From: a virus
IMG/VR virus record: IMGVR_UViG_3300037585_003129
Span: 1 to 22,521 of that record
Length of the DNA: 22,521 nt
Direction: 5' to 3' (one strand)
This document shows positions 9,476 to 22,246 of the stretch, one piece after another. Every line of letters starts with the position of its first letter. The first letter of the stretch is position 1. The notes beneath the pieces were generated by a model that saw only the letters and a list, made by a program, of their open reading frames with translations, was not told where the DNA came from and did not search any database. The position numbers and the translations under genes were made by a program.

Positions 9476-9589
9476 ACCGTAGCGCCAAAGGATGGGTTAA
9501 AACCTCTGACGCCGGTTAAGCATCAGGGAAAATCTCGCAAAAACCCGATGCCCCCTCTTTTTACCGGAAAAAAATTCACCAGTAACCCC

Positions 9590-9606: not shown

Positions 9607-9629
9607 TTAAAATTATTTTTCTAGTACCC

Positions 9630-9658
9630 TTGTAATAACACCTTGGTAACCCCATATT
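9630..9658 (+). promoter_or_regulatory. Rightward GTAACCC-class promoter
   Basis: A sigma70-like -35 (TTGTAA, 9630-9635) and -10 (CATATT, 9653-9658) are separated by 17 bases. GTAACCCC at 9646-9653 fills the end of the spacer and touches the -10. The same arrangement occurs twice on the minus strand at 21089-21117 and 22091-22118. The leader leads to AGGAGAACG and the ATG at 9689. The shared spacer element is probably read by a phage or host regulator. Confidence 0.65.
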
Positions 9659-9688
9659 AGTAATATAGCAGTAAAAGGAGAACGCGCT

Positions 9689-10006
9689 ATGAGACTTTAT
9701 CAAGACAGCAAGGGCCAATGGTACGGCACACAAGCAGACGCACGCCGCGCGGCACCCCGCGACTGGCGCGAGGTCGAGGTGCCGACAAGCAAGCAAGAGC
9801 TGATCAACTGGCTTAGTGTGCATGAGGTTGGCGCAAAGGCTAAGGGCTTGAGCCCAGAGCCGCAGGAGCCAAAGCCTGAGCTGCTCGCACCGCAAGCCGC
9901 AAGCTGGGTGTCGTGGGCGCTCGAAACGCTGAACCGTGGGCATAAATCTGATGCGGCAGAAATGCTGCGCAAGGGTCTGAAGATCCAGAAAGGATGGGCG
10001 CAATGA
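9689..10006 (+). CDS. Conserved-looking unknown protein
   Basis: This gene encodes 105 residues, with ATG at 9689 behind AGGAGAACG, the same leader as the genes at 21059 and 22063. The N-terminus (MRLYQDSKGQWYGTQADARRA) looks like a small beta-hairpin with aromatic residues, a pattern I recall at the start of short proteins in other marine phages. A Pro/Glu-rich linker (SPEPQEPKPE) joins it to a C-terminal helix. There is no membrane segment or known catalytic motif. It has its own strong promoter and is coupled to the next gene by a four-base overlap, so the two probably act at the same stage, perhaps early. Function unknown. Confidence 0.75.
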   Translation: MRLYQDSKGQWYGTQADARRAAPRDWREVEVPTSKQELINWLSVHEVGAKAKGLSPEPQEPKPELLAPQAASWVSWALETLNRGHKSDAAEMLRKGLKIQKGWAQ

Positions 10007-10767
10007 AGTGCCTAAAAATCAAGTCCGTCAATCACGGCGAAACAAAATCCGACCGCAACCGCTACTGTGGCCCCGCCGTGATCAGCGCGATCACCGGCAT
10101 GACCACCGGCGAAGCCGCTCGGCTGATCCGGCATGTCAGCGGTAAGTATTGGAATGGCCGCAGAGCGGTCAAAGGGACTACGGTTCTAGAGGTCACAGAA
10201 GCGCTGGAAATGTGCGGCGTCAAAAGTAAGTACCAGTCGTTTGGCATGAAGCTAAACAGCTCAACCGGCCCAACATTAGCCGGCTGGCTCAAGGCCACAG
10301 TCAAAGAGCGCACGGCCGATCGCGTGTTCCTGATCGTGGCGGGCTGGCACTGGCAACTGGTCCAAGGCCGGCGCATCGTCTGCGGCATCCTTAGCGAGCC
10401 CGCCAGCATCCGCGACAAGCGCGTCAAGCGCCGTGCACGCGTGGCAAACGTGTATGAGCTGCGCTCGATGGGCGCCATCACGACGCCGTCGCAGGCGTGC
10501 AAGCCCAAGCGTAAGCCGGACCCTAACGCCGCAGCCCGCCGCAAGGCAAAGAAGCTGATGGCTCAGTACGACTTCGAGGTCGATTACGACAGCGAAATGC
10601 GGACCTATTGGGTGAGCATGACAGAGGAAGCTGAAAACTTGGCGACTGAGTTGGAGCACCACTTGCGCGATGAGCATTACGTCGACGACTGGGAACAGAT
10701 CTTATGGCGGATGGAAGATATGGCCCAGTTTATGGACCACCACTTCCCGAAAAAGAAGGCGGCCTGA
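10003..10767 (+). CDS. Papain/C39-like Cys-His domain protein
   Basis: The product is 254 residues. I choose the ATG at 10003 rather than 9994 because it overlaps the upstream stop (ATGA) and has AAAGGA at good spacing. Near the N-terminus, NRYCGPAVISAITG places Cys22 at the start of a helix, as in papain-fold C39-like proteins. GWHWQLVQGRRIVCG places His116 on the following beta-hairpin. The usual third residue (Asp or Asn) after the His is not obvious, as the position reads VCG. The C-terminal part is basic, then acidic and helical (residues 165-254), and may be a separate domain. It could be a protease acting on a host or phage protein, or an inactive relative. It lacks signal peptide and membrane segments. 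Confidence 0.65.
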   Translation: MKCLKIKSVNHGETKSDRNRYCGPAVISAITGMTTGEAARLIRHVSGKYWNGRRAVKGTTVLEVTEALEMCGVKSKYQSFGMKLNSSTGPTLAGWLKATVKERTADRVFLIVAGWHWQLVQGRRIVCGILSEPASIRDKRVKRRARVANVYELRSMGAITTPSQACKPKRKPDPNAAARRKAKKLMAQYDFEVDYDSEMRTYWVSMTEEAENLATELEHHLRDEHYVDDWEQILWRMEDMAQFMDHHFPKKKAA

Positions 10768-10809
10768 CGGCGCTTAACCATAGGGGCGCGCAAGTAATTT
10801 GACAGAATA

Positions 10810-10832
10810 CGCCCGCGCTGATAGCGTGGGCG
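10810..10832 (+). terminator. Hairpin in convergent gap, possible terminator of the rightward pair
   Basis: A ten-base-pair stem with one G-U pair and a three-base loop lies 43 bases past the rightward stop codon at 10767. Neither side has a strong T tract. The left arm can also pair with 10838-10843, so this hairpin competes with the larger inverted repeat next to it. Confidence 0.4.
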
Positions 10833-10835
10833 TCA

Positions 10836-10923
10836 CGGCGGGCGACAAATCTCAACCCTTCTTCTTGTATCGTTTAGCGTTGTAACTCTAAAAACCCTGC
10901 CAAGTTTTTAACGTCGCCCGCCG
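10836..10923. repeat. Long-range perfect inverted repeat in convergent gap
   Basis: CGGCGGGCGAC (10836-10846) and GTCGCCCGCCG (10913-10923) are perfect reverse complements separated by 66 bases. The interior is AT-rich and contains a smaller repeat, TAAAAAC with GTTTTTA. It fills the space between the rightward pair and the 3' end of the terminase gene. The large interior is unusual for a simple terminator. A structured transcript or a protein-binding site is possible. Confidence 0.6.
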
Positions 10924-10926
10924 CAC

Positions 10927-12339
10927 TCAAACAACTCCCCTCACTCGCCGGCGCAGCGGCGCCGCCCAGCCCCCCTTCTTACCGTAATGCATCGTCGTGT
11001 GATCTGTCGCCAGCGACAGGCAAAGCGCGTCCGCGCGATCTGGCGAGGCGACCTTGCGCTTTTTCATGCTGTCCTTGCTCTCGACCTGCATCTTGCCCGA
11101 CGCAGTAAACGTGTACCGAGGCGCCGCCAGCTCCGCGTACAGCGCGTCATCGCGAGGTAGCTTGACGTCCATACCAGACAGATATGCCTTGGCCTTAAAC
11201 CACAGCTCAGCGCGCAAATTCAAATACGTCCCAGAGGCCGCTGCGCGCTCCGAGACGTTCAAACCGCGTGCCGGCATCCCAAGCTGGACGCACCTGTCAA
11301 GCACACCGGCGCCAAAGCCGTTGCTGTCGATCACGATTTCCTGCGGCCTCTTCGTCTCAGGCAGGGCGTCATATTCCGCCTTCACCGCCGCAGCCGTCTG
11401 CATCAAATCGAAATTCCGCCACACAAGCATCGGGTGAACGACCGGCCCCTGCCGCTTACACAGCACCGTCGCATCGCCGCCCTGACGCGCAACGTCAAGC
11501 CCCCAAACGCTGGAGGCGTTCTCGTGCACCCTCACGTCGCTATTCATCGCGTGCTCAATCAGAGCGACCGGTATCACCGTGTCCTCCTCCGAGGGCGGAA
11601 AGTTGCCCAAAACGCGCACATGATAACTTGGGCTATCGTCGCCGTACCGGCGCATCATGTCCTCAACATAATCGTCGCTCACGCGCGGGCTGTCGACGCA
11701 GCTCACATGCATCGTGTGCCAGCTATCGCTGAGCCGGTGGTGCGTGTCATAAAAGAACCCCGTGTTCCGCGTCGGGTTGCCGGTGAGAACCGTCGTACAG
11801 TTCATGCCGGACATCGACCCGCTGGCAGCGATAAAAACGCCCTCCGCAATACCGCTGGCCTCATCCGCCAGCAACAGGATCGAGCCCATCGAGTGAACGC
11901 CGGCCAGCGCCTCCGGCTGCTCGGCGCGCGACGTCCGGCAACTAATAAAGCTACTCTCCGGCGCGCTCTTCAGCTCAATCCGGTCCGACTTGATATCGAG
12001 CAGCGTATTAAATGGCGGCTTGAGCCTCTTGGCCAATGATTTCATTTCGGCGAACAACGCGTCAAAAAGCTGCGAGCTGGTGGGGGCCGTGGTCACCGTC
12101 TTGCTCGGGACGCGCATCAAAACGTGCCACAGGGCTGCCATAGCAACGGCCGTCGACTTGCCGACGCCGTGGCCGCTGCGCACCGATATGCGCCGCTTCG
12201 CGGGATCTGCGACAGCCGTGAGCAGCTCCTTCTGCCACGGGTCGGGGTCGATGCCGATGACCTCCTTGGCAAAGAGAACGGGCTCATTCTGGTAGCGGCG
12301 CATGAGCGCCATAAACGGGTTTTCGACAGGCTTATTCAT
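10927..12339 (-). CDS. terL: Terminase large subunit
   Basis: The product is 470 residues from ATG at 12339, behind TTAGGAGCCCCC. The ATPase half has Walker A SGHGVGKST (55-63), Walker B LLLADE with Asp159 and Glu160, and the coupling motif TGNPT (186-190). The RNase-H-like nuclease half has acidic residues Asp282 (GLDVAR), Asp338 (VIDSNG) and Asp434/Asp437 (SPDRADA). The enzyme powers DNA translocation through the portal and cuts the concatemer. The length is typical. The family appearance is the terminase_6-like branch found in many podoviruses and siphoviruses. It is separated from the small subunit by an unusual 318-base gap. The C-terminus is basic (APLRRRVRG), as expected for portal docking. 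Confidence 0.95.
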   Translation of the reverse strand: MNKPVENPFMALMRRYQNEPVLFAKEVIGIDPDPWQKELLTAVADPAKRRISVRSGHGVGKSTAVAMAALWHVLMRVPSKTVTTAPTSSQLFDALFAEMKSLAKRLKPPFNTLLDIKSDRIELKSAPESSFISCRTSRAEQPEALAGVHSMGSILLLADEASGIAEGVFIAASGSMSGMNCTTVLTGNPTRNTGFFYDTHHRLSDSWHTMHVSCVDSPRVSDDYVEDMMRRYGDDSPSYHVRVLGNFPPSEEDTVIPVALIEHAMNSDVRVHENASSVWGLDVARQGGDATVLCKRQGPVVHPMLVWRNFDLMQTAAAVKAEYDALPETKRPQEIVIDSNGFGAGVLDRCVQLGMPARGLNVSERAAASGTYLNLRAELWFKAKAYLSGMDVKLPRDDALYAELAAPRYTFTASGKMQVESKDSMKKRKVASPDRADALCLSLATDHTTMHYGKKGGWAAPLRRRVRGVV

Positions 12340-12657
12340 GGGGGCTCCTAATTTTGAAAACGGGGCGCAGGGGTGGGGTGGGTCATGGGGGTGCGTGAGG
12401 GGGACATTGATAATTACACCCCCTCGGTTTTGCGAAGGGGGGGGTCAATCGACGACCGACCGACCGCCGAGGCACCGAAAACCCCGATCTAAAACGATTA
12501 CGGCGTATAACATGTATTATGTTAAATAAACCCCATTGAAAACATTGATGTTTCTCCTTAAAGGCGACCGCTTTGCCCCGATCCGGCGCGGAAACGGCTA
12601 TCGAAAACCCTCTCCCGCGCGCGGTTGTGCGTCGCCGCCAATGCCCGAAACCGCGGT
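12340..12657. other. Gap between terminase genes, candidate packaging (cos/pac) region
   Basis: These 318 bases hold no gene with a good start or plausible protein. They are structured. A stem CCCCCTCG/CGAAGGGGG with one bulged A lies at 12419-12441, inside a run of eight G (12437-12444). A GACC triplet repeat lies at 12454-12465. TAACAT-GTATT-ATGTTA forms an inverted repeat at 12508-12524. Ten-base palindromes CCGCGCGCGG and AACCGCGGTT lie at 12615-12624 and 12649-12658. Many phages keep the packaging start site in or near terS, so this is the best candidate here. It may also hold the terL promoter. Confidence 0.5.
12508..12524. repeat. Inverted repeat TAACAT-N5-ATGTTA
   Basis: Perfect six-base arms around a five-base centre inside the terminase gap. 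The size and symmetry suit a dimeric DNA-binding protein such as a repressor or terminase small subunit. It overlaps AT-rich sequence that could hold a leftward promoter for the large subunit gene. Confidence 0.4.
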
Positions 12658-13092
12658 TCAAACGTCACCCTCGTCGATCACCTCGGCATCCTCAACGTCG
12701 CTAAGCAGCGCCGCTGCCTGCGCGTGCAAGTCGTTCACGCTGATGTTGATCTGCACGTCCTTCTGCCTCACGTCATACTGCGGGTTCAGCTTCGACGCGA
12801 TCCACTTGTCAGTGTCCACTTGCAAGCGCGCTAAGTTCACGTTGCCAGCGTCCGCTTCCTGCGCCGTGTCGACCGCTCGCGCGGCGTAGTAGTGACCCGC
12901 AGCTTCCATCGCCTGATAGTATCGATCACGTCTGCCCACCTTGCTATCGACCCACTTGTACCAGAGACGCCAGCCGATGTTCAGCTTCTTGATCATTTTG
13001 TTCACTGTCATGCCCGACGCTATATCATCGAATATACTTTCCTCGCCGATATCCTCTATCGCGGCCAGCTTCTTGCGTGCTATCTCACCCAT
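12658..13092 (-). CDS. terS: Terminase small subunit
   Basis: The product is 144 residues. The start at 13092 is set by a textbook AGGAGG six bases upstream of ATG and by overlap with the preceding stop; a longer upstream frame lacks such a site. The N-terminal helix-turn-helix (FDDIASGMTVNKMIKKLNIGWRL, then WYKWVDS, residues ~22-50) is followed by helices with YYQAMEAAGHYYAARAVDTAQEA and a segment resembling those of small terminases (NLARLQVDTDKWIASKLNPQ, ~88-107). The tail is acidic (SDVEDAEVIDEGD). The protein recognises the packaging site and regulates the large subunit. The architecture is the common HTH, oligomerisation helices, acidic tail order. Identification rests on this pattern and on the neighbouring large subunit. 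Confidence 0.85.
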   Translation of the reverse strand: MGEIARKKLAAIEDIGEESIFDDIASGMTVNKMIKKLNIGWRLWYKWVDSKVGRRDRYYQAMEAAGHYYAARAVDTAQEADAGNVNLARLQVDTDKWIASKLNPQYDVRQKDVQINISVNDLHAQAAALLSDVEDAEVIDEGDV

Positions 13093-13354
13093 TGCAATCC
13101 TCCTGCTCTGCTGCGAGCGCCGCGTATCCGCAAGCATCGACCCAGTTGTCGACAGCGCCCGCACCTCCAGCCGTGCGAGCAATCTTGAGAAGCGCCATCA
13201 TCGCCATAACATCCTTGGCTGATACATCCTCGCCTAGATAAGCGCCCCACATAAGCGCTATCCTTCTGTGCAATACCGATGCATCGCCATACGTTTCCTG
13301 CCGGTCGCCGTTTATCAGCTCCTCGGCTTTCCTTAAAACATCTGCTCTTACCAC
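13085..13354 (-). CDS. DUF6378-like phage protein
   Basis: This gene encodes 89 residues. GTG at 13354 overlaps the previous stop by seven bases, with GGAGG a little upstream. The sequence RADVLRKAEELINGDRQETYGDA, then HRRIALMWGAYLG, DVMAMMALLKIAR and DNWVDACGYAALAAEQ matches the small helical DUF6378 family common in phages. Its ordered acidic residues (E11/E12, D48, D69 and D73 region) resemble an all-alpha NTP-pyrophosphohydrolase (MazG-like) layout, but that link is my inference. Such a protein might clean up or divert nucleotides. It is translationally coupled to terS, which overlaps its 3' end by eight bases. Confidence 0.75.
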   Translation of the reverse strand: MVRADVLRKAEELINGDRQETYGDASVLHRRIALMWGAYLGEDVSAKDVMAMMALLKIARTAGGAGAVDNWVDACGYAALAAEQEDCNG

Positions 13355-13944
13355 GGGATCTCATCCTCCAATATCTTTGCAGTCTTGCTCTTATCGACGC
13401 CTTCGATGCGCGTCACCCGTGCATTCGGGAAACTGTCAAACGCTGCATCTAAAAACGCCTCGCTAAAATGCGATGTTAACACCCTCGCGGCGTCCTCGAA
13501 AGAGTACACCGTCCAATCCGGATACTTCTGCCGCAGCTCCGCCCAGCCGTGTAGCGCAATGCAAACTATCTTGCCCTCCTCCAGCTCCACACAATAGCAG
13601 TGCTCCGGCAATGGCTGATGCCCAGCCGCCTCTGCTTCTGTCTCTAGCACGCCCCACGCTTTGATAAGCTGCGTCGCGATCTTGTTGACCCGCACAGGAT
13701 CTTTTGCGCTTACAGCGGCGTGCAGCGCATCGTAGGCCGCCTCAAAGCGGCCAGCCAAATCAGGGCTCACCAGCGACGGCAACGTATTACCCCAGCGCGC
13801 CGTCTTATCTCTAGCCACACGGTCCAGCGGCTCTAGCTGGCCCCACACTGCCGCCGGTATAACGTCCTTCGCCTCGCCGGTATTCAGGTGCTTGTACTTC
13901 AACTCCTGCGCCGTCGGTTTTCTCATCTTTCCTTTTCTCGCCAT
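13348..13944 (-). CDS. Unknown protein upstream of terS
   Basis: The product is 198 residues from ATG at 13944, with AAGGAG six bases upstream, starting 13 bases after the previous stop. The N-terminus is basic (MARKGKMRKPTAQELKYK). The middle is helical (RFEAAYDALHAAVSAKDPVRV, then KIATQLIKAWGVLETEAE). The next part looks like a mixed alpha/beta unit (CYCVELEEGKIVCIALHGWAE, then WTVYSFEDAARVL). The acidic C-terminus ends EDEIPW. No catalytic motif is clear. Similar proteins sit near terminase genes in other marine phages as I recall, but without function. A DNA-packaging or replication accessory role is only suggested by position. Confidence 0.7.
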   Translation of the reverse strand: MARKGKMRKPTAQELKYKHLNTGEAKDVIPAAVWGQLEPLDRVARDKTARWGNTLPSLVSPDLAGRFEAAYDALHAAVSAKDPVRVNKIATQLIKAWGVLETEAEAAGHQPLPEHCYCVELEEGKIVCIALHGWAELRQKYPDWTVYSFEDAARVLTSHFSEAFLDAAFDSFPNARVTRIEGVDKSKTAKILEDEIPW

Positions 13945-13956
13945 CTTGCTCTCCTT

Positions 13957-14379
13957 TCAGGCAATCACTTTAAACTTTTCCATTGGGATGTAAGCCACCG
14001 GCTCAATGTCCTGCGGGTCACCACGCCTTACCGACCCACCCATGCCGTAGCTTGACCCTTCGGACGGCAGCTTACACATGCCCGCCTTGTCGCTCCACTG
14101 CACCGCCAAGAACGACGGCAGTCCCGTGCTTTTAGCAAGCGCGTCCGCCATCATAATCTTATACATCGAAATCATATAGGTTGGATACGCTGCCATAAGA
14201 TTACGCCTTTGCCTCATCTCAAAAAACGCCACCGCTTCTCCGCCCCTAGTCGCCATGAAGTCCAGACTGAGTTTCATTGGCATTTTATGCAGCTCACAAT
14301 TATACGAACCTCGGATAACATCAGCCAGCCTTTGCTCGTTTATTCTGTCCTGCTCGCTCTCGTATATCTGTCTAACCAT
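13957..14379 (-). CDS. PD-(D/E)XK-like nuclease candidate
   Basis: The product is 140 residues. I use ATG at 14379 (MVRQIYESEQDRINEQ) with GGGGG five bases upstream; a start at 14391 lacks a site. The layout is that of a small restriction-endonuclease fold: an N-terminal helix with Glu (NEQRLAD), LSLDFMAT with Asp on a strand (~residue 40), then AVAFFEMRQRRN (Glu ~53), where the usual Lys of ExK is Arg. A helix follows (YPTYMISMYKIMMADALA) and a final strand (PSFLAVQWSD). The end carries RRGDPQDIEPVAYIPMEKFKVI. I recall a marine-phage family of this form in which ExK is intact. Function could be DNA processing or host DNA degradation. It is the first gene after the GTCATAAT repeat region. Confidence 0.6.
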   Translation of the reverse strand: MVRQIYESEQDRINEQRLADVIRGSYNCELHKMPMKLSLDFMATRGGEAVAFFEMRQRRNLMAAYPTYMISMYKIMMADALAKSTGLPSFLAVQWSDKAGMCKLPSEGSSYGMGGSVRRGDPQDIEPVAYIPMEKFKVIA

Positions 14380-14400
14380 TATTACCCCCAACGCACGCGC

Positions 14401-14538
14401 GTCATAATTATATGCCTCTTAGGCATATATGATTATTATGACGCCTACACGTCTGCCGTCATAATATGAACATAAACCGTCATAATTGTCATAAAACATA
14501 CCGTAACCCCTTGATTTCATTACATCCGTTTTTATGAC
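14401..14538. repeat. GTCATAAT iteron-like cluster with central hairpin
   Basis: Four exact copies of GTCATAAT occur: three direct on the plus strand (14401-14408, 14458-14465, 14479-14486) and one inverted (14435-14442). Near copies GTCATAAA lie at 14488-14495 and, inverted, at 14531-14538. The first direct and inverted copies flank a hairpin, TATATGCCT-CTT-AGGCATATA (14409-14429). Copies at 14458 and 14479 are 21 bases apart, two helical turns. The region lies between the primase-helicase stop and a leftward gene. It suits a replication origin or a multi-site operator. Confidence 0.65.
14486..14516 (+). promoter_or_regulatory. Degenerate GTAACCCC element in the iteron region
   Basis: GTAACCCC (14503-14510) lies 17 bases from the start of a TTGTCA hexamer (14486-14491), almost the geometry of the three GTAACCC promoters. 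The -10 position reads TTGATT, a weak match. If active it would transcribe rightward, antisense to the primase-helicase gene, or bind the same regulator without acting as a promoter. Confidence 0.35.
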
Positions 14539-16670
14539 GCACCTGTCACCTTGCCCTCGGAACCCGTCGACCACACAAATCCGTCGTTCATGGCCATATG
14601 GCCGCTGGAAATGAGCCCGTCGAGCGCCTGCGTGTACGTCTGCCGCTTGTTATTGGCCGTCATCTTGCCGAGCGCGTGCTCACGCAGAAGCGCCTCCTGA
14701 ATGATCCACCGAGTGCCTGCCTCCGGCCATCCGGCGCCGGTCATATTGATGTGGCCCACGCGCTCCGATCTGAGCTGCTTGTACGCCGACAAGATCAGGC
14801 GCTGGTTCTTTCCGCTTGGCCGCTTCTGCCGCGCCTCGCTTGCCTCTTCCTCATCGACCGGCGTGACAACCGCAGTTGACACTGGGTCGCCATCCTCATC
14901 AGTGCCCAGCGGGAAGTCGTCGAGTTTAAATGTCAGCACGCCGCCGCCTTGCAAGTCTCGCTGCTTTGTGGCTTTGGCGAAGCGGTACACGCCGTCCTCG
15001 GCCACCTCCAGCTCGACCTCCGTATCGCAGGCGGCCCTGAGTGAGCTGTGGCCGCGTGCACCGGCCGCTGTGTCCTTGCCCGAGTGGTGCACGATCGGAA
15101 CCGCGCAGCCCGTCTCCAGCCGCAGCCGGTCGCAGTTTAGAATGAATGCCGTCATCGCTTCTGGGCTGTTCTCGTTGCCGCCTGCCATCGACCGGCTGAG
15201 AGTGTCGACGCAGATCGCCCCCATCCTCACGCCGGTGTGCGCCTCCACCTGTTTCGCCAGCTCGGCGATCTTCATCACGTCGGCGTCCGGATCGAGCAAG
15301 TCAACGGGGCTCGCCCGCACGGCCAACGGGACGTCCACGTCACCGTATTTCTGGCCGACCGCATATGCTCGGTTGCGGAATGCGTTCCCGCCCTCTGTGG
15401 CTAGGTACAGCACGCTGGATTGCTTTGTGCGGTTGCCCATCCAGATCCGGCCGGCTGCAACGTGATAGAGCGCGTCCAGCATAAAGAACGACTTGCCCAC
15501 GTTTGACTGCCCGTACACGACCGACATCTGCCCCCAGCCAAACCAATTCTTTATCAAGTATGAGCTGCCAAGCTGCGGCTTTGCCTCCGCGATAAAGAAA
15601 ACCTCGTCTGACAGGCTGACGTCGACCGCCTTGCTCTCGGCCGCGACATCATCGAGCCGCTTTGCCATCGCCAGAGCCTCGCGCATTTTTTGCGCTCCAG
15701 CCTCACGCAGAAAATCGTTTGCGTCCTTTACATTCTCGAAGCCTTGCTGATCGAAGCGCACGACGTGCACGTCGACGCTACCGTCGCCCTTGAGCACGTC
15801 GCCGACCGCCGCCACGTCAAGGTCAGGGTCAGCGCAGATCGTCACGTCGCTGGCCCTCGGAGGGTTGTACGTCGACATGCCGGCTTTGCCAAACGTGCAG
15901 ATGATCGTCGCCTCCGCGTGGCCCTCGACGGCCTGCCTGACGCTCAGCGCGTCCTCCGGCCCCTCGACCATAATGATGGCGCCGCCTTCGTGCTCATCGC
16001 CAATCCGCATCGCTGACCCAGATATGGCGCCTCGGCTGTATTTCGAGATCCCGTTGTGCTCGCGCTTCTGCCCCTCTGGGGTGAGCAGGACGGCTTGCAC
16101 GCCGCAGACGCTCCCGTCGTCGCCCAGCGCCGGAAAGATGATCGCGGGCCCGTCGTATAAGTTGGGCGTAAAGCGCGCCACGCCGGCAGCCGCGGAGGCT
16201 CTCAGGCCGCGTGAGTTCAAGTATAACAGCGCAGGCCGGCAGGCGTCCTTTGTATCCCTGTTGATCGGCACGGCGCGCTCCCACGATGCCCGAGCCTTTT
16301 CGATTTTCGCCGCGCGTGTCTCGTCGTCTCGGCTCAGTAATTCTTTGGCCGCCAGCCGTGTAATCAGCCGTTCCATCTCGCTTGGCTGAAACGGCACCGC
16401 GTCGGCGTTTTCCAACACCTTGGGGTTTTCGCTGCCGCGCTTAAACCCGCTGCCAATCGTCGACTTAATCTCATGCTCTTGCAGGCCAATGGCTTTGGCC
16501 GCCGCGTGCAGTTCGATGATCGTCGCCTCGATGTTTCCCGCGTCCATATGCGCGTGCCGACCCAACGTAAACGCCGCCTTGTTCAGCGCGACGTTGCGCT
16601 CGCCCCTCGGGGCTCCATCTATTTCGTGCACCAGATTTTCGCGCACCTTTGAAAAATATGCTTGGCTCAT
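14532..16670 (-). CDS. Primase-helicase (Toprim plus RecA-like ATPase)
   Basis: The product is 712 residues. The start is ATG at 16670, with GGAG eight bases upstream; the frame stays open further but lacks a site. Residues 1-80 form a helical PriCT-like segment. Residues ~120-175 (YLNSRGLRA) match the domain that precedes Toprim in phage primases. Toprim spans ~180-325, with VEGPEDALS (Glu236) and CADPDLD (Asp281, Asp283, Asp285). The RecA-like ATPase spans ~370-560, with Walker A GQSNVGKS (387-394), Walker B AICVDT (Asp489), the VHHSGK motif (527-532) and ARGHSSLRAACD (538-549), typical of RepA/AAA_25 helicases. The C-terminal ~100 residues may be a winged-helix region. No zinc-binding CHC2 motif is visible, so priming activity is inferred. 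It would unwind DNA and lay primers at the fork. Confidence 0.9.
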   Translation of the reverse strand: MSQAYFSKVRENLVHEIDGAPRGERNVALNKAAFTLGRHAHMDAGNIEATIIELHAAAKAIGLQEHEIKSTIGSGFKRGSENPKVLENADAVPFQPSEMERLITRLAAKELLSRDDETRAAKIEKARASWERAVPINRDTKDACRPALLYLNSRGLRASAAAGVARFTPNLYDGPAIIFPALGDDGSVCGVQAVLLTPEGQKREHNGISKYSRGAISGSAMRIGDEHEGGAIIMVEGPEDALSVRQAVEGHAEATIICTFGKAGMSTYNPPRASDVTICADPDLDVAAVGDVLKGDGSVDVHVVRFDQQGFENVKDANDFLREAGAQKMREALAMAKRLDDVAAESKAVDVSLSDEVFFIAEAKPQLGSSYLIKNWFGWGQMSVVYGQSNVGKSFFMLDALYHVAAGRIWMGNRTKQSSVLYLATEGGNAFRNRAYAVGQKYGDVDVPLAVRASPVDLLDPDADVMKIAELAKQVEAHTGVRMGAICVDTLSRSMAGGNENSPEAMTAFILNCDRLRLETGCAVPIVHHSGKDTAAGARGHSSLRAACDTEVELEVAEDGVYRFAKATKQRDLQGGGVLTFKLDDFPLGTDEDGDPVSTAVVTPVDEEEASEARQKRPSGKNQRLILSAYKQLRSERVGHINMTGAGWPEAGTRWIIQEALLREHALGKMTANNKRQTYTQALDGLISSGHMAMNDGFVWSTGSEGKVTGAS

Positions 16671-16693
16671 TATCCGCTCTCCTAAATAAGATG

Positions 16694-16720
16694 CGCGCCC
16701 GACGGTGTGCCGGACGCGCT
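16694..16720. terminator. GC-rich hairpin between SSB-like and primase-helicase genes
   Basis: A nine-base-pair stem with one G-U pair (minus strand GCGCGTCCG with CGGGCGCGC) and a nine-base loop sits in the short space between genes. The leftward side has only ATCTTATTT, so termination would be weak. It more likely trims or protects mRNA, lowering primase-helicase expression relative to the upstream SSB-like gene. Confidence 0.4.
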
Positions 16721-16726
16721 TTTCTC

Positions 16727-17311
16727 TTAAAATCCGAAGTCGTCTCCGGCCGCTGCGGCTGCCACTGGGGCGGCTTGAGCGGGAGGGGCGGCTTGCGGTG
16801 CCGGAGCAGCCGCAGGCGCCTCTGTGGGAGCCTCTGGGCGCGGTATCCACTTCTTTATAGCAAAGCCTACGTCGTAGCTTGTGCCGCGCCCTATGACGAC
16901 CGGCGTCGAGCTGGTGATTTGCACCACCGGTATCTGTGTCTCGAACTCCGGACACTTTTCGGCCTCGTTATATAGCTTGGCTATAAACTGGCCAAGGCCG
17001 TAGCTGTTGCCGCTGAACTCGGCCTCGCGCCGGTCTTGCAGCCAGCACTTAACCTCGAAGCCGTTTTTATGGCTGTCGCTCGGTCGCGGGATTTGCTGCG
17101 ACGGGCTCGGCCACGGCTGCCAGTCACGCACGCCGACGTCGATGTGGAGCCAGCCGAAAACTACATTCTTGATGTCGATCGCGACACCAGCTCCCATATC
17201 AAGAGGCGGCTCGTCGCCGGCCTCGCTTTTAACCCACCACTTATTCTGCGGTAGGTTGGCTCTCAGGTAGACACCGCTGGTGTCAGATGAACTTCCGAAT
17301 GATATTGGCAT
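16727..17311 (-). CDS. SSB-like single-stranded DNA-binding protein
   Basis: The product is 194 residues from ATG at 17311 behind AAGAGGTAACC. Residues 1-155 look like a beta-rich core with many aromatic residues (WWVKSE, FGWLHIDVGVRDWQPWP, FEVKCWLQD). Residues 158-189 are a flexible Ala/Pro-rich linker. The chain ends AAGDDFGF, an acidic tip with terminal Phe like that of bacterial SSB (DDDIPF) and T7 gp2.5, which recruits replication partners. It lies between the primase-helicase and the exonuclease gene, where phages often keep SSB or annealing proteins. I recognise similar proteins in environmental phages but cannot name the family with certainty. Single-strand binding is inferred from the tail, composition and context. 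Confidence 0.65.
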   Translation of the reverse strand: MPISFGSSSDTSGVYLRANLPQNKWWVKSEAGDEPPLDMGAGVAIDIKNVVFGWLHIDVGVRDWQPWPSPSQQIPRPSDSHKNGFEVKCWLQDRREAEFSGNSYGLGQFIAKLYNEAEKCPEFETQIPVVQITSSTPVVIGRGTSYDVGFAIKKWIPRPEAPTEAPAAAPAPQAAPPAQAAPVAAAAAGDDFGF

Positions 17312-17334
17312 GGTTACCTCTTAGGTTGGTTTGC

Positions 17335-18150
17335 CTAAACCCCGTCGGGTTGTGAAAATTGAAATGCCCAGCGCGGCAACTGCAACGTCTGCAAATCGCC
17401 ATAGTCGTAGCCGAACACTCCGGTTTCACGCGCCCTCGCATATTGCAAAAGCGCGTATTCTGTTGCCGCCTGTCCCTCGGTGAGGCTGTGAGCGTCCAGC
17501 TCGTATATGCCAACCAAGTGCGGGGGCTCTTTGCCTACCGCGATGAACACGAACCTGTCAACCTCATGCCCATCTTGCGCCATCACAGCGCGGTAGAAAT
17601 ATTCCTGAATATGATACCCGAAATTTGCAATGCTCTTTGCAAAGCCCGCAGGCGACGGGTCCAATGTCGTCTTCAAATCGATGACGGCCGCGATGTCTCG
17701 GCGCCAGCCGTCAGGGCGGCACCTCACGTCGACGTGCTTTTCTTTCACGCCCTCCACTGGGAGCTGGCTGAACACGCTGGCCTCGACCAGCAAGTCACCG
17801 GTTAACAGGGAAGCCGCGGCAGCGTTGCTGCGCACGGCCTCCGCCATGTCGGACGCAAGGCGATAGTCGCCCTCTGTGAGTAGCAGCGCGCCCTCTTCAT
17901 CAGCCTGCTTTTTTAAATCCTTCCACTCGGAGCCCCGACGCGTCTCAGGCCCGCACCAAACCATCGAGCTGTTTTCGGGCTCAAGTGTGAAAGTGTGCGC
18001 AGCCGTTCCAACGTCGAACGCAGTCGTGTTTTTCCGCTGGGCACCCTTAAAGTGGGCAAGCGATTTCTGCGCAATCGTTTTGACCCCAGAGGCGCTCAGA
18101 GACGGATCTAAGTGGTACTCCTCAATCGGCATGTTCACTTTAATTGGCAT
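17335..18150 (-). CDS. RecE/exonuclease VIII-like PD-(D/E)XK exonuclease
   Basis: The product is 271 residues. I choose ATG at 18150 (MPIKVNMPIEEYH), since the upstream in-frame ATG at 18165 lies at the GGAGGGG that serves as its ribosome-binding site. The gene overlaps the resolvase gene by 11 bases. Conserved features are the N-terminal LSASGVKTI, the family motif FDVGTAAHTF with His52, Glu123, Asp147 in RCRPDGW, the IDLKTT core (Asp158, Lys160), and QEYFYR (Gln182, Tyr186). These form the metal-binding active site of RecE and lambda-exonuclease-like nucleases (DUF3799/PDDEXK_1). The enzyme would resect double-strand ends for recombination-dependent replication. The usual partner annealase is not obvious, though the downstream SSB-like protein may serve. 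Confidence 0.85.
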   Translation of the reverse strand: MPIKVNMPIEEYHLDPSLSASGVKTIAQKSLAHFKGAQRKNTTAFDVGTAAHTFTLEPENSSMVWCGPETRRGSEWKDLKKQADEEGALLLTEGDYRLASDMAEAVRSNAAAASLLTGDLLVEASVFSQLPVEGVKEKHVDVRCRPDGWRRDIAAVIDLKTTLDPSPAGFAKSIANFGYHIQEYFYRAVMAQDGHEVDRFVFIAVGKEPPHLVGIYELDAHSLTEGQAATEYALLQYARARETGVFGYDYGDLQTLQLPRWAFQFSQPDGV

Positions 18151-18604
18151 TCTTTCCCCTCCCATATTGCGCGATAAGAAGTGCCTCCGCGCGGTGCTCG
18201 TCTTTCTTTCGTTTCAGCTCGGCCGCCCGATCAGGGAACCATTGCTGCGCCAGTCGTCTGGCGGCGTCCTTATCACGCGGCAAATTCATGCTGCGCTTCC
18301 AAGTATTCGGCGTGACCAGCGTGTAGCGGCTGCGCGAGAGCGCCGCGGTTGTCACGATCTGCCCGAAGGCGTAGCCAAGTTTAAACGTCGAGCTGACGCC
18401 CTGCCGCGGCATGGCCTGCTGCCTTTCTATGTATATGTGGTCGACGGCCTCGACGCTGGTCAGTATATCCATCAGCGCCGTAACATCGACGCCGCCCTCC
18501 GAGTAAACTGGTAGGTCGTGGACCTCGCTCCAGTTGTCTCCGATTATGCCGACGCCTCCGGTTCTGTAACCGCAGTCGATGCCAATGGTCACGGCTTCTT
18601 TCAT
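18140..18604 (-). CDS. RuvC-like Holliday junction resolvase
   Basis: The product is 154 residues from ATG at 18604, directly after the previous stop. It has the RNase-H fold signature: Asp10 in IGIDCG, Glu60 in IYIERQ, and a C-terminal DEHRAEALLIAQY helix with Asp135 and Glu140. In RuvC family proteins these four acidic residues bind two metals; here the last is Glu rather than the common Asp. TPNTWKRSM (98-106) matches the VxPxxWK segment of the family. The length is close to that of E. coli RuvC (173). It resolves branched DNA before packaging and probably works with the co-transcribed exonuclease. Confidence 0.88.
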   Translation of the reverse strand: MKEAVTIGIDCGYRTGGVGIIGDNWSEVHDLPVYSEGGVDVTALMDILTSVEAVDHIYIERQQAMPRQGVSSTFKLGYAFGQIVTTAALSRSRYTLVTPNTWKRSMNLPRDKDAARRLAQQWFPDRAAELKRKKDEHRAEALLIAQYGRGKNAN

Positions 18605-18883
18605 CTAATGCATATCCTTTTTGCTTGGGGCGTTTAAATCTTGCGAGATGATACTGTGAACTAATATTAGTAGCTCGCCGGTGTCAAACGTATCCTCCTT
18701 TAGAAACGCAATAGCAGCCTGAAGCATCCCGACCGTCATGCTGGTGCGCGCCATATCGGCAAACTCTTCATCTTCGCCCTCCGACACGCCGGCTTGCAGG
18801 CCGCGCAAAAATTCAACTGACGTGTTGAACGCGTCGGCCTGCGTGGCGGTTAACCGCCTTTCAAACTCCGACCAGTCAGGCAT
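18605..18883 (-). CDS. Small acidic helical unknown protein
   Basis: This gene encodes 92 residues. I choose ATG at 18883 (MPDWSEFERRLTATQADAF), which overlaps the upstream stop within ATGCCTGA. A GTG start at 18910 would lengthen the overlap and has no site. The protein appears fully helical with an acidic middle (VSEGEDEEFADMA) and a hydrophobic helix (MTVGMLQAAIAFLKED) that is too short and charged at its ends to be a clear membrane segment. It abuts the resolvase gene. I do not recognise a family. It could be a recombination accessory. Confidence 0.6.
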   Translation of the reverse strand: MPDWSEFERRLTATQADAFNTSVEFLRGLQAGVSEGEDEEFADMARTSMTVGMLQAAIAFLKEDTFDTGELLILVHSIISQDLNAPSKKDMH

Positions 18884-19034
18884 CGACGGCGCCTGCCGCT
18901 TTAGCCTCACTGAGCATCCGCATCAGCGCTCGCTCGGTAAGCACAGACATGCTGATGCGCTCGCGCTTGCTTAACTTGCGCAGCTCATCAATTACCTCGA
19001 CGCGGATGTGCGCCCCTAGTTGCTTCGTTTCCAT
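18876..19034 (-). CDS. 52-residue ribbon-helix-helix protein
   Basis: A 52-codon frame from ATG at 19034 has AAGGAG six bases upstream and overlaps both neighbours (19 bases with the upstream gene, eight with the downstream one). The peptide begins METKQLGAHIRVEVIDELRKLS and continues with RISMSVLTERALMRMLSEA. That is a beta strand followed by two helices in the size and pattern of Arc/CopG ribbon-helix-helix repressors. Such proteins bind short inverted repeats as dimers. It could control one of the operators in this window, such as the GTAACCC or CACAT sites. The target is not shown by the sequence. Confidence 0.65.
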   Translation of the reverse strand: METKQLGAHIRVEVIDELRKLSKRERISMSVLTERALMRMLSEAKAAGAVDA

Positions 19035-19390
19035 GTTAGTCTCCTTTCCTGCGCCGGCTCCGGCGCGTTAAAATCAAAAGTGTGTTGCCGCGGGATCGAA
19101 TAGAACGTGTAACCGTCATCCCTTTCTCCGTCCAGATATCCCAGCTTTACAAGCGTATCCAGAGCGCGCTGGATGCGCTCGACCGGAACGCCTACAATTC
19201 GGTTCTGAAAGTCGTTTATGATCCACACGGGCCGCGTTGCCGCGATCCGCAATATTTCTTTGCGCAGCTTACCGACCGGCCAGACGCGAGCGCGTTCCGA
19301 GGTTTTGTGCTTGGTGCTGCGCATTACCCGCAGAAGGCGCTCGTTTTCCGCCTCCGCCATCTCCTTCATTTTGTCAAGCTGCGTTGTCAC
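19016..19390 (-). CDS. Candidate winged-helix regulator
   Basis: The product is 124 residues, with GTG at 19390 overlapping the upstream stop (GTGA) and GGAG seven bases ahead. The N-terminal 30 residues are a helix (LDKMKEMAEAENERLLRVM). Residues ~40-95 fit a winged helix-turn-helix: LRKEILRIAATRPVWIINDF, then VPVERIQRALDTLVKLGYLD (recognition helix), and a wing-like YTFYSIPRQ. The tail carries a Pro-rich, basic segment (PEPAQERRLTWKR). The pattern is like phage proteins that sense or bind DNA at promoters. It is followed by a ribbon-helix-helix gene, giving two putative DNA-binding genes in a row. The call is from secondary-structure pattern only. Confidence 0.55.
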   Translation of the reverse strand: MTTQLDKMKEMAEAENERLLRVMRSTKHKTSERARVWPVGKLRKEILRIAATRPVWIINDFQNRIVGVPVERIQRALDTLVKLGYLDGERDDGYTFYSIPRQHTFDFNAPEPAQERRLTWKRSN

Positions 19391-19563
19391 GGCAACTCTC
19401 CAAGGGCGCGCTCCAGAGCGTCACACAGCGCGATAATCTCCGCCGCACGCTGGTGCGTCGTGTGGATGTTTTCGTTATTGGCCTTGGCGTCAAGGCGGAT
19501 GATATCCGCCTTGCGCCGTATAGCCATCACGAACATGTGCGGGCTGTTACTTTGTTCCTGCAT
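19387..19563 (-). CDS. 58-residue helical unknown protein
   Basis: A 58-codon frame starts with ATG at 19563 behind AGGAGG and ends at 19387 in a four-base overlap with the next GTG. It begins MQEQSNSPHMFVMAIRRKADI and continues with helices containing AKANNENIHTTHQRAAEIIAL. It is likely an amphipathic helical hairpin. No metal motif or membrane segment is present. The excellent ribosome-binding site and couplings on both sides support it as real. Function unknown. Confidence 0.65.
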   Translation of the reverse strand: MQEQSNSPHMFVMAIRRKADIIRLDAKANNENIHTTHQRAAEIIALCDALERALGELP

Positions 19564-19756
19564 CGATTTCCTCCTGCAATTTTTTGGCCTCAGCCTCCAG
19601 CGCGCGGTATTCGCTCATGGCCACGGCAATTTCAGTTGATACCCACGCCGGCCGCACGCCGGTGCCGTACCGCTTGCGTAGGTCGGCGACATCAGCCAGA
19701 CGCATCGCGTTCATCTCTGCGATCGCTTGGATCTGCTTTGATCTTGATTGGTTCAT
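19547..19756 (-). CDS. 69-residue helical unknown protein
   Basis: This gene encodes 69 residues from ATG at 19756, with GAGGAGA five bases upstream, and overlaps the next gene by 17 bases. The sequence is almost all helix: an N-terminal half with SRSKQIQAIAEMNAMRLADV, then a KRYGTG turn, and a C-terminal helix (YRALEAEAKKLQEEIDAG) that could form a coiled coil. It belongs to the run of small genes between the zinc-finger protein and the recombination genes. I do not recognise it. Confidence 0.65.
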   Translation of the reverse strand: MNQSRSKQIQAIAEMNAMRLADVADLRKRYGTGVRPAWVSTEIAVAMSEYRALEAEAKKLQEEIDAGTK

Positions 19757-19768
19757 AATATTCTCCTC

Positions 19769-19861
19769 TCAGAACCAGTGGTGGATTTCACCATACGCCC
19801 AGAGGGCGCACAGTATTGCGGTGATCAAAAAGATCAGCGCGTGCTCGGTGCTCTCCTTCAT
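19769..19861 (-). CDS. 30-residue single-span membrane peptide
   Basis: A 30-codon frame starts at ATG 19861, overlapping the upstream stop in ATGA with GGGGG five bases ahead. The peptide has a charged N-terminus (MKESTEH), a hydrophobic stretch (ALIFLITAILCALWAYG, residues 8-24) long enough to cross a membrane, and a His/Trp end (EIHHWF). It could be a membrane regulator, a small holin-like or exclusion peptide. Its position in the replication region is against a lysis role. The coupling is the main evidence that it is real. Confidence 0.55.
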   Translation of the reverse strand: MKESTEHALIFLITAILCALWAYGEIHHWF

Positions 19862-20700
19862 GCGAGCCCCCAGTTGGCAGCGCAGATCGGACCGATGCCG
19901 CGCTCTATGCTATCTTTGTTTGTCAGTGTACGGCCGCAGCACGCGCAGATGCCAAACTTGTGGCCATACGCGGTTGCGCTGCTCAGCGGGTCAGCGGCCA
20001 GCGCTTGCAGCGCCTCGGTGACCTCGGTTGTGCACTTGCGGAATGCCGTCATCTCGCCGTCACGAACATAGCCGTAGTAGTCGTCCTCAAAAGCGGGGCC
20101 AGCTTTTACATTGATGGCGCCGGCGTTCTTGGCGTTAGGGCCAGCCTTAGAAAGAACAAGGCCGTTCAGGCGCAGCTTCGGGTACTGGATGCCGGACATC
20201 TGAGCCGTGGCAAAGACTTCCTCGACCCGACCCAAATCGACTTTTACCTTTGGAGCCGCCCGCTCGGCTGCGCGCTTTGCGTCACGCTCGGCCTGCTCGG
20301 CTACGATCTTGCCGGCCAGAGCGGCCTGCTTATCTGTCAGCGCGTTGTACTTGTCGAATGAGGCCAGCAAGCTGGAGGCGATGTTGTGCCACTGCATTGC
20401 GCGCAGCCCCTCGATCAATCCTTCGTGCTCCGCCATAAAATCGTCCTTGGCGTCCTGCGCCAGCTTAGCTTTGCGCGCGACGCGCTGGGCCTTTGCCTTG
20501 AAGCGCTCGGCTGGGCTCGCATAAAAGAAGCCTTTGCCCTTGCAGGCGAGACAGTTGCTGTTGCCGTGGCGGTTTGTGCCGCCAGACCATTTGCCGGTGC
20601 CAGAACACTGGCCGCACGGGTGAGTTTCACGCTCTTTCTTTGAGCCGGTAATCACCGGCTCATCTGCGAGGCTTGCTGCGAAATCTTCAAAGGTGCTCAT
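19858..20700 (-). CDS. Two-zinc-finger protein with DUF6011-like C-terminus
   Basis: The product is 280 residues, with ATG at 20700 sharing one base with the preceding stop. Near the N-terminus, CGQCSGTGKWSGG (C29, C32) and CLACKGKGF (C50, C53) form a DnaJ-type CxxCxGxG zinc site. Residues ~65-150 are a very basic and acidic helical region (AKAQRVARKAKLAQDAKDDF). A central domain (155-225) has a strand-rich QYPKLRLNGLVLSKAG segment. The C-terminus has GICACCGRTLTNKDS and ERGIGPICAANWG, matching DUF6011, a small zinc ribbon in phage and bacterial proteins. Binding of DNA or RNA through two zinc modules is the likely role. I infer a role in replication or transcription from position only. Confidence 0.75.
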   Translation of the reverse strand: MSTFEDFAASLADEPVITGSKKERETHPCGQCSGTGKWSGGTNRHGNSNCLACKGKGFFYASPAERFKAKAQRVARKAKLAQDAKDDFMAEHEGLIEGLRAMQWHNIASSLLASFDKYNALTDKQAALAGKIVAEQAERDAKRAAERAAPKVKVDLGRVEEVFATAQMSGIQYPKLRLNGLVLSKAGPNAKNAGAINVKAGPAFEDDYYGYVRDGEMTAFRKCTTEVTEALQALAADPLSSATAYGHKFGICACCGRTLTNKDSIERGIGPICAANWGLA

Positions 20701-21059
20701 TATACTTGCTCCACTTTTTTGAAACCGACGGGGGAAACCGTATAAGTTTCATCGCCAACAACCATCCGATCAAATACCATTGTTGACCTTTGGCCCATCC
20801 CGTCTTCGCGCTGGCGCAACACGGTGACATCTTCGTTGTAGTCGCCGTTTGGCATTTCGCCGCCATCACGCGTTGGAAGAAATTCTTTTTTGATAGACCA
20901 AGAGCCCATCACGTTGTTTGTGTAGCGGTAAGCGTACTCAAGCATTTCCTCGACGCCGTGGTTTACGAAGTCAGACACGTCAACTTTTGCCACATCTGTG
21001 TAGCTAGTTACGTCGCCAGTGTCGCGGTTGCGCTCTGCGTGTTGTACGATGATTTCCAT
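20700..21059 (-). CDS. Unknown protein behind a GTAACCC promoter
   Basis: The product is 119 residues from ATG at 21059, with AGGAGAACG six bases upstream, the leader shared with genes at 9689, 21762 and 22063. It begins MEIIVQHAERNRDTGDVTSYTD, then a helix (VNHGVEEMLEYAYRYTNNV) and a strand-rich half (MVFDRMVVGDETYTVSPVGF). It is acidic with no cysteine or membrane segment. It opens the operon that continues into the zinc-finger gene. I recognise no family. Confidence 0.7.
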   Translation of the reverse strand: MEIIVQHAERNRDTGDVTSYTDVAKVDVSDFVNHGVEEMLEYAYRYTNNVMGSWSIKKEFLPTRDGGEMPNGDYNEDVTVLRQREDGMGQRSTMVFDRMVVGDETYTVSPVGFKKVEQV

Positions 21060-21088
21060 TTTTTTCGTTCTCCTGTTGTTACATCCTT

Positions 21089-21117
21089 AATATGGGGTTA
21101 CCTTTCAAATATTACAA
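21089..21117 (-). promoter_or_regulatory. Leftward GTAACCC-class promoter
   Basis: On the minus strand, -35 TTGTAA (21117-21112) and -10 CATATT (21094-21089) are 17 bases apart, with GTAACCCC (21101-21094) abutting the -10. The two hexamers, the spacer length and GTAACCCCATATTA are identical to the rightward promoter at 9630-9658. It drives the gene starting at 21059. Confidence 0.65.
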
Positions 21118-21166
21118 TAGTTCCGCAAAAATAATTTTAAATTAACTCTATACCCTTTCAGAGGCG

Positions 21167-21205
21167 ATATAAGCCCCGCTGAGTGGGGGGATTTCTCCCC
21201 CTTTT
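21167..21205. terminator. Overlapping hairpins after the 21208 gene
   Basis: GGGGG and CCCCC form a hairpin whose plus side is followed by TTTTGTTT. A second pairing (minus CCCC-ACTCAGC-GGGG followed by CTTATAT) overlaps it and suits leftward termination just past the stop codon at 21208. The two are mutually exclusive, so termination may be partial or regulated. Confidence 0.45.
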
Positions 21206-21207
21206 GT

Positions 21208-21762
21208 TTAAAAATTGTAATCGTAAAATTTGTACGGAGCAGTCGACAGGTTGTGGCGTCCATTGGCAGAATAAAAGTAACCATCCTTGCGGAGCCTAGC
21301 ACGGATCACCCTGTTGTCTTTGTTTGAAGTGTAGATCCATTTCTGAGAGCCGTTGTTTACTGTGTGACCAGCAAAGCCACCAGCAATGGTTTCAGGTTTC
21401 CACTCTGGGTCTAACTCAGCATCAACCAAACGGATCTCGATTGTCTTTGGTGAGACAACGCGCACGATCTCATATGGGTGTGCGTCTGTGTATCCACTAT
21501 GGTTTGCATGGGTGTACTCGACAGCTTCGACGCCATATTCGTATTTGTTGTTGTACTCGCCACAGCGGCTGACAGGCAGATCTTCGATGAAATCTTCAGC
21601 GGCCTCTTGGCTGTCAAAGGTGGTGGTGACTGTTGAGCTTGAGTGCAAGTAACCATTGTAGCTGCTAAGTTTTTCAAAGTAGGCTTTCTTAGCAGTGTGG
21701 CTGCGTGACCCGTCGCGTGTGCTGACTGTGTCGATTACGGTGATTACATATGTGGTAAGCAT
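21208..21762 (-). CDS. Unknown protein with conserved-looking FYDYNF C-terminus
   Basis: The product is 184 residues, with ATG at 21762 behind AGGAGAACG. The N-terminal 75 residues are strand-rich (MLTTYVITVIDTVSTRDG, then STVTTTFDSQEAAEDFIEDL). The C-terminal ~90 residues look like a compact domain with HPYEIVRVVSPKTIEIRLVD, then GGFAGHTVNNGSQKWIYTSN, IRARLRKDGYF and the ending PYKFYDYNF. I recall phage proteins of unknown function with the same GGF..H..NN..QKW order and an aromatic end, so this domain is probably widespread in phages. Possible single-domain enzyme or binding module; no catalytic triad is evident. Confidence 0.7.
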   Translation of the reverse strand: MLTTYVITVIDTVSTRDGSRSHTAKKAYFEKLSSYNGYLHSSSTVTTTFDSQEAAEDFIEDLPVSRCGEYNNKYEYGVEAVEYTHANHSGYTDAHPYEIVRVVSPKTIEIRLVDAELDPEWKPETIAGGFAGHTVNNGSQKWIYTSNKDNRVIRARLRKDGYFYSANGRHNLSTAPYKFYDYNF

Positions 21763-21829
21763 TTTCGTTCTCCTTTATGCTTGGTTTGGTCTTTAGGATG
21801 CCGGCCTCGTAAGGCTGGTCACCAAAAGA

Positions 21830-22063
21830 TCAAAAGTCAGTACAAACAACGCCCTTTGCTTCCATTATTTCTAGTAGGTCGGCGCGTGACCAAGCGCGGC
21901 AGATGATGCGATCCATTCCGTGCGCTGTGTCTGTTGCTAACCACTTTAGGCCAATCTTGTGAACAATGATATTTTCCGCGCCTTTGACGCACCATTCGGT
22001 AGTTGATGTCCCCATACCGTTTCCGTTCCACTGTGCGGCTGATAGTTTTTTAAGTTTAAGCAT
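21830..22063 (-). CDS. Unknown 77-residue protein behind a GTAACCC promoter
   Basis: This gene encodes 77 residues from ATG at 22063, with AGGAGAACG three bases upstream. It is small, basic near the N-terminus (MLKLKKLSAAQWNGNG), with two strands (TTEWCVKGAENIIVHKIGLKW) and a helix (SRADLLEIMEAKGVV). No known motif. It is the first gene of the leftward transcript at the right side of the window. The short gap before the next gene (21763-21829) has no gene. Confidence 0.65.
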   Translation of the reverse strand: MLKLKKLSAAQWNGNGMGTSTTEWCVKGAENIIVHKIGLKWLATDTAHGMDRIICRAWSRADLLEIMEAKGVVCTDF

Positions 22064-22090
22064 TTTCGTTCTCCTTGTTCCTATAACAGT

Positions 22091-22118
22091 AATATAGGGT
22101 TACCGCTGTGATATACAA
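22091..22118 (-). promoter_or_regulatory. Leftward GTAACCC-class promoter
   Basis: On the minus strand, -35 TTGTAT (22118-22113) and -10 TATATT (22096-22091) are separated by 16 bases, with GTAACCC (22103-22097) abutting the -10. It is the third member of the class and the closest to a sigma70 -10. It drives the gene starting at 22063. Confidence 0.65.
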
Positions 22119-22196: not shown

Positions 22197-22219
22197 CACA
22201 TGAAAAAAATGTGTAATAT
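22197..22219 (+). promoter_or_regulatory. Candidate promoter/operator of the 22247 gene
   Basis: CACAT (22197-22201) and ATGTG (22209-22213) form a perfect inverted repeat around seven bases, immediately followed by TAATAT, a possible -10 (22214-22219). A further CACAT occurs at 22227-22231. No good -35 is seen, so activation may be needed. The repeat suggests an operator covering the -10. The GTAACCC element is absent, so this promoter belongs to another class. Confidence 0.45.
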
Positions 22220-22246
22220 CATGCTACACATGCACAGGAGTATATC

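Follow-up and report, generated by a model that had tools for sequence, protein, structure and literature searches.

Three promoter-like sites and a small Arc-like protein in one phage record

We consider here a 22,521-nucleotide stretch of viral DNA, positions 1 to 22,521 of the IMG/VR record IMGVR_UViG_3300037585_003129 (the window in what follows), and in particular three promoter-like sites that share a sequence element, together with a small ribbon-helix-helix (RHH) protein encoded in the same window that may bind it. The record belongs to a tailed phage, with genes for a terminase, a portal protein, a primase-helicase, and a PD-(D/E)XK nuclease. Site 1 (positions 9630–9658, plus strand) has the form TTGTAA-N17-CATATT with GGTAACCCCATATTA and lies 5' of the open reading frame (ORF) at 9689–10006, the first of two small genes of 105 and 257 amino acids (the second at 9994–10767; together 9689–10767, plus strand). 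Site 2 (21089–21117, minus strand) has the same form, again with GGTAACCCCATATTA, and lies 5' of a gene for 119 amino acids (20700–21059, minus strand). Site 3 (22091–22118, minus strand) reads TTGTAT-N16-TATATT with GGTAACCCTATATTA and precedes a gene for 77 amino acids (21830–22063, minus strand), the first of a leftward early operon; family searches with this 77-residue protein returned no match. The candidate regulator is a 52-amino-acid Arc-like RHH protein, METKQLGAHIRVEVIDELRKLSKRERISMSVLTERALMRMLSEAKAAGAVDA, encoded at 18876–19034 on the minus strand.

Direct reading of the sequence confirmed the three sites at the positions given by an earlier note on this DNA, and the block common to them proved slightly longer than that note had claimed: it is GGTAACCC(C/T)ATATTA, 15 bases, with sites 1 and 2 the same at 15/15. 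The 13-base core GTAACCCYATATT has three exact matches in the window; allowing up to two mismatches gives 4 matches, compared with 0.35 expected (sd 0.54; maximum 2 in 100 shuffles), and a 13-mer present in three copies was seen in none of 30 shuffles of the sequence. Scanning the 22.5-kb record for further full sites yielded none. The bases separating the −35 hexamer from GGTAAC are unlike among the three sites (TAACACCTT, TATTTGAAA, and ATCACAGC, respectively), and the block has thus been kept while its neighbors drifted.

By eye, the site hexamers match the Escherichia coli sigma70 consensus (TTGACA-N16-18-TATAAT) at only 8 of 12 positions, and a consensus scan for sigma70 promoters (threshold 9) did not have sites 1–3 among those listed; the label "promoter" therefore rests on position and on the conservation of layout in relatives described below. 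Identical copies of an A/T tract, TTAAAATTATTTTT, which we regard as UP-element-like, end 9 nt before the −35 hexamers of site 1 (tract at 9607–9620, plus strand) and site 2 (21127–21140, minus strand). Farther out, AGTAACCCC (9581–9589, plus strand) lies 64 bp 5' of the site 1 element; a T-run and then an A-run follow the unit, and a near-identical contig (L122) has GGTAACCCC there. This unit may be an auxiliary half-site or belong to a weak hairpin. A TATAG/TATAA-like hexamer also recurs 26–27 bp past the −35, near the expected transcript start, at sites 1–3 and with several operator types. All three sites lead, as the earlier note had it, to AGGAGAACG leaders, but the leader is not tied to such promoters, since the gene that starts at 21762 has a fourth copy in front of it and lacks a promoter of this kind. 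We therefore rejected a leader-specific role for AGGAGAACG, which in this phage serves ribosome binding generally.

The spacer element and the operators of related phages

At the DNA level, the whole window has no match among named phages. Its terminase is 55% identical to that of a Manatee Spring phage and 49% identical to that of phage phiM5, the nearest named isolate, which infects Sinorhizobium. IMG/VR holds at least 80 relatives with terminase identities of 72–99%; one of them (G001, also L127; 37.2 kb) has most genes in common with the window, in the same order, with identities of 80–83% for the terminase, the portal protein, a 317-amino-acid capsid-like protein, and a resolvase-like protein.

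The exact form of the element was seen, among the matches listed, in close kin only. The 15-mer occurs in at least 118 stretches of IMG/VR, nearly all of them chance or coding matches, with L094 and L122 (one mismatch) as the true relatives among the matches listed; a gapped promoter pattern gave 15 matches, and these same two alone had promoter context. Among the matches listed, GTAACCC in promoter context is thus found only in the window phage and two near-identical contigs. A search of the wider set of relatives with a loosened core, by comparison, gave promoters such as TTGCATGTCTGATGTGTTAACACTATGTTAACTGTATAGG, in which the recurring unit is GTTAAC-N5-GTTAAC at the same promoter place as the window block.

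This dyad is abundant and precisely spaced. With 0–1 mismatch, GTTAAC-N5-GTTAAC has 65 sites in 80 terminase relatives, compared with 0–15 for six control patterns, and GTTAAC units most often lie exactly 11 bp apart (55 cases), the spacing that RHH dimers would be expected to show; six other hexamers had no such peak in their spacing. At some loci (L172 and L269), three units stand in 11-bp register. In the ten longer relatives, 29 of 30 dyads are followed at 10–60 bp by a start codon that has a ribosome-binding site (in our crude ORF calls a few dyads fall within small overlapping ORFs, and we took these ORFs as spurious). The expectation that further hits would fall only upstream of genes is accordingly borne out in the relatives; for the window, with 3 of 3, it holds trivially. 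The distant relatives phiM5 and two Manatee Spring phages (one of them a partial sequence) contain no dyad at 0–1 mismatch.

The link between the window block and this operator is clearest at the promoter heading the leftward early genes, the place of site 3. The orthologous promoter of one relative (G002:9436) reads TTGCAC-N8-GGTAAC-TG-TATGTTAAC, which agrees with site 3 in spacing and in its GGTAAC but has an intact right half, and that of G001 reads TTGCAC-N8-GTTATC-TT-TATGTTAAC. In the light of the first of these promoters, the spacer element of the window is best read as the left half-site of an operator that reaches over the −10 with its right half; in the promoters that were aligned, the operators occupy the −35 to −10 interval or cover the −10. 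Comparison with GTTAAC-N5-GTTAAC accordingly gives the proposed operators as GGTAAC-N5-ATTAGT for site 1 (9645–9661, plus strand), GGTAAC-N5-ATTAAG for site 2 (21086–21102, minus strand), and GGTAAC-N5-ATTACT for site 3 (22088–22104, minus strand).

Seen against these promoters, the idea of a promoter class with a shared regulator acting between −35 and −10 is well supported, because the dyads there are repeated within a phage yet differ from one phage to the next. GTAACCC, by contrast, does not stand as a spacer motif by itself, belonging as it does to an operator of which it forms one half and the sequence over the −10 the other. Conservation is likewise divided, the promoter layout being kept in related phages and the exact GTAACCC, among the matches listed, only in the near-identical contigs. 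We note in passing an inverted repeat, TGTGTA-N9-TACACA (approximately 22208–22229), just 5' of the rightward gene at 22247–22516; homologs of this gene in relatives have a GTTAAC-N5-(T/A)TTAAC dyad there instead.

The candidate regulator

The earlier note left the regulator unnamed, and a concrete candidate is encoded in the same window, at 18876–19034. Residues 9–47 of the 52-amino-acid protein match phrog_3180, "Arc-like repressor" (E = 7.4e-8), and orthologs of its gene lie at the same place in relatives, adjoining the resolvase-like gene. The window and each of the 10 GTTAAC-type relatives encode a phrog_3180 protein (G000–G010 all match), whereas five phages that use other operators lack it. 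The RHH genes of the relatives encode 53–61 amino acids and have the dyad directly before the gene: among distinct starts, all 40 of the RHH genes have it, compared with 56 of 1749 other gene starts. Searching by RHH protein only gave 57 loci, at which the dyad was again present.

The window protein is 62% identical to the RHH protein of the collinear relative G001 and, by eye, aligns without gaps to Arc over the strand and helices. Arc contacts DNA through Q9, N11, and R13, and opposite these residues the window protein has Q5, G7, and H9. Residue 9 is His in the window protein only and Arg in all other aligned family members, and the window also has the deviant operator GGTAAC-N5-ATTA. This is suggestive of a pairing between His9 and the GGTAAC variant, as a single case and with the reservation that G002, which has Arg9, also has one GGTAAC half-site.

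Taking these observations together, we consider it probable that the regulator of sites 1–3 is the phage's own RHH protein, shutting off small early genes. Sites 1–3 would be host RNA polymerase promoters (TTGTAW, 16–17 bp, YATATT) under an operator, with the left half-site, GGTAAC, in the spacer and the right half overlapping the −10 (ATATTA). Made from the leftward early operon, the RHH protein would accumulate and bind the element GGTAACCCYATATTA, its dimers occupying half-sites 11 bp apart and covering the spacer and the −10, so that binding should block polymerase. The dispersed small early genes behind the three promoters would then be shut off, the repressor's own operon included; with sites 2 and 3 heading the leftward early operon to which the RHH gene belongs, a negative loop would close. 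We infer binding of the GGTAAC variant by the window protein, repression as the direction of control, and the transcript starts and timing. A search of 14 records, which are possibly incomplete, found no tyrosine integrase, though it did not extend to serine recombinases; a lysogeny repressor or lysogenic immunity is accordingly less likely than early shut-off.

Several observations weigh against this assignment. In the window, little more than ATTA is left of the right half-site, so that dyad symmetry is weak, and there is no operator directly 5' of the window RHH gene, so that the autoregulation seen in the layout of the relatives could here act only via the operon promoters. The window protein scores 15.4 bits against Pfam RHH_1, for which the cut-off is 20.5; the RHH protein of a relative (L155) exceeds that cut-off at 24.3–24.8 bits. 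A monomer model of the window protein (pLDDT 84) has two helices, with the strand not seen, and its Foldseek matches are weak, though Arc and CopG are among them. IMG/VR searches did not turn up a closer relative that combines GGTAAC sites with an RHH gene, and the link between RHH protein and operator in the window lineage therefore rests on one genome: the window protein as a single-sequence query in IMG/VR had no match, two RHH proteins had none among named phages, and two other window genes led to no closer relatives. The weakest step is thus the putative pairing, made from sequence, of the variant operator in the window with the RHH protein encoded there.

Possible exchange of operators, alternative explanations, and known systems

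The genes behind these promoters also occur in other phages, behind other operators. Homologs of the site 2 gene (20700–21059), in the phages L202–L216, have a similar promoter scaffold with a different palindrome: GTAAGG-N4-CCTTAC in G011, TGACA-NN-TGTCA in G012 and G013, and AAGACGTCTT-like sequences in G016 and G017. The exact TGACA palindrome has four copies in G012, all four within such a promoter. The family of the site 1 gene at 9994–10767 lies behind GTTAAC dyads in G001 and behind the TGACA palindrome in G013, its homologs behind other operators being found in G001, G012, and G013 for the site 1 pair as a whole, and a MAY(D/N)PTHEYEH family lies behind GTTAGC-N5-GTTAAC in G004 and behind TGACA in G012 and G013. 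At least three gene families are thus found behind two or more different palindromes. The regulators of the G011–G013 palindromes, sought among small ORFs, were not identified. In L209 and L211–L215, the site 2 homolog promoters have AAGACGTCTT-like palindromes that resemble MetJ boxes.

The occurrence of the same genes behind different palindromes is compatible with regulators specific to each phage; it speaks against a spacer preference intrinsic to the promoter and also against a single host factor. We hold it possible, if only tentatively, that cassettes of small genes, built on a common promoter scaffold, pass between unrelated phages of this host range, the palindrome being swapped to obey the resident phage's repressor. 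Elsewhere in the window, a 450-amino-acid protein (6284–7636, minus strand) has, along part of its sequence, 75% identity to a protein of the otherwise little related G011, which is probably a recent exchange. The listed primase-helicase ORF (14532–16955, minus strand) overlaps the preceding gene (16727–17311), so its true start is probably further downstream.

The main rival to the RHH protein is the host cell-cycle regulator CtrA, which binds and regulates TTAA-N7-TTAA sites in three phages (PMC9437464) and for which the element would be a binding site, as in other alphaproteobacterial phages. The dyad of the relatives does include TTAA-N7-TTAA, the published CtrA consensus, and matches that box to the letter, and Sinorhizobium is the host of the nearest named isolate; our guess for the window phage, too, is an alphaproteobacterial host, which stays uncertain, a host look-up in genome contigs having given seven matches, mostly to contigs of metagenome-assembled genomes with mixed names (Desulfuromonadales, Opitutae, Rhodobacteraceae, Rickettsiales, and others). 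The window sites, however, are GTAA-N7-TTA(G/A/C), with no full CtrA box, and 40 of 51 distinct TTAA-N7-TTAA sites in relatives are flanked by G, C, G, and C at all four positions, so that the conserved unit is GTTAAC, longer than CtrA needs. Moreover, the units continue in 11-bp register beyond two, the RHH gene of the relatives is always preceded by the dyad, and the other palindromes before the same downstream genes are unexplained by a host factor of fixed specificity. We therefore regard CtrA as very unlikely to account for the window element, while the dyad of the relatives may have a double role, serving both CtrA and the RHH protein.

An operator serving another phage regulator is also unlikely. 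Here the example would be the 124-amino-acid protein at 19016–19390, which adjoins the RHH gene, has a weak HTH_36 match (E = 0.15), and has distant homologs at a neighboring place in G001 and G002; that the window RHH gene lacks an operator of its own would agree with such a regulator. Yet these homologs are only 29% identical and occur in 2 of 10 relatives, whereas the RHH gene is in all GTTAAC-type relatives and the dyads are located at the RHH gene itself. Much the same low probability attaches to explanations that need no regulator, in which the block is a promoter-intrinsic element (an extended −10 or a spacer preference of host polymerase) or a recently duplicated promoter cassette. Sites 1 and 2 do have the upstream A/T tract and the leader in common, as a duplicated cassette would, but the 8–9 bases from the −35 to GGTAAC have diverged across sites 1–3 with the 15-base block kept, and relatives keep the −35/−10 scaffold while the block varies by phage.

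Regulation by the RHH protein would have partial precedents. Like Arc and Mnt of phage P22, and like phrog_3180, the candidate is a small phage-encoded RHH protein, with the gap-free alignment to Arc described above, and the operator half-sites of the relatives lie one helical turn (11 bp) apart over a promoter, the right half being degenerate in the window. P22 Arc acts at one control region; the relatives, unlike it, repeat one operator before several scattered genes as well as the RHH gene itself, and their half-sites are, unlike those of Arc and Mnt, the palindromic hexamer GTTAAC (GGTAAC in the window). A palindromic unit repeated in fixed register and, in the relatives, putative autoregulation recall MetJ, CopG, and similar RHH repressors, from which the present system differs in unit and spacing (MetJ boxes are 8 bp) and to which no sequence relation was found past the general RHH profile. 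With the CtrA-regulated phage promoters (PMC9437464) it has in common TTAA-N7-TTAA 5' of genes in phages of Alphaproteobacteria; unlike them, it has GTTAAC as its unit, is tied to a phage RHH gene, and in its window version contains no CtrA box. T7 Gp5.7 (PMC5569994) and the Aca repressors of anti-CRISPR operons (PMC9410906) are small phage DNA-binding proteins that bring about shut-off, and the RHH protein would likewise turn off host-polymerase promoters; the protein folds and operators differ.

For an uncharacterized class of Arc-like phage repressors, these observations provide a testable operator, and they advise caution in that TTAA-N7-TTAA in phages of Alphaproteobacteria need not be a CtrA site. 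The promoters of the same genes differ between phages mainly in the operator, and so form a natural series for the study of regulator–operator co-evolution and early-gene sharing. If cassettes are indeed exchanged with their palindromes swapped, operators would mark exchange or immunity groups, and the GGTAAC variant of the window, with its His-for-Arg substitution, would represent a specificity shift in progress.

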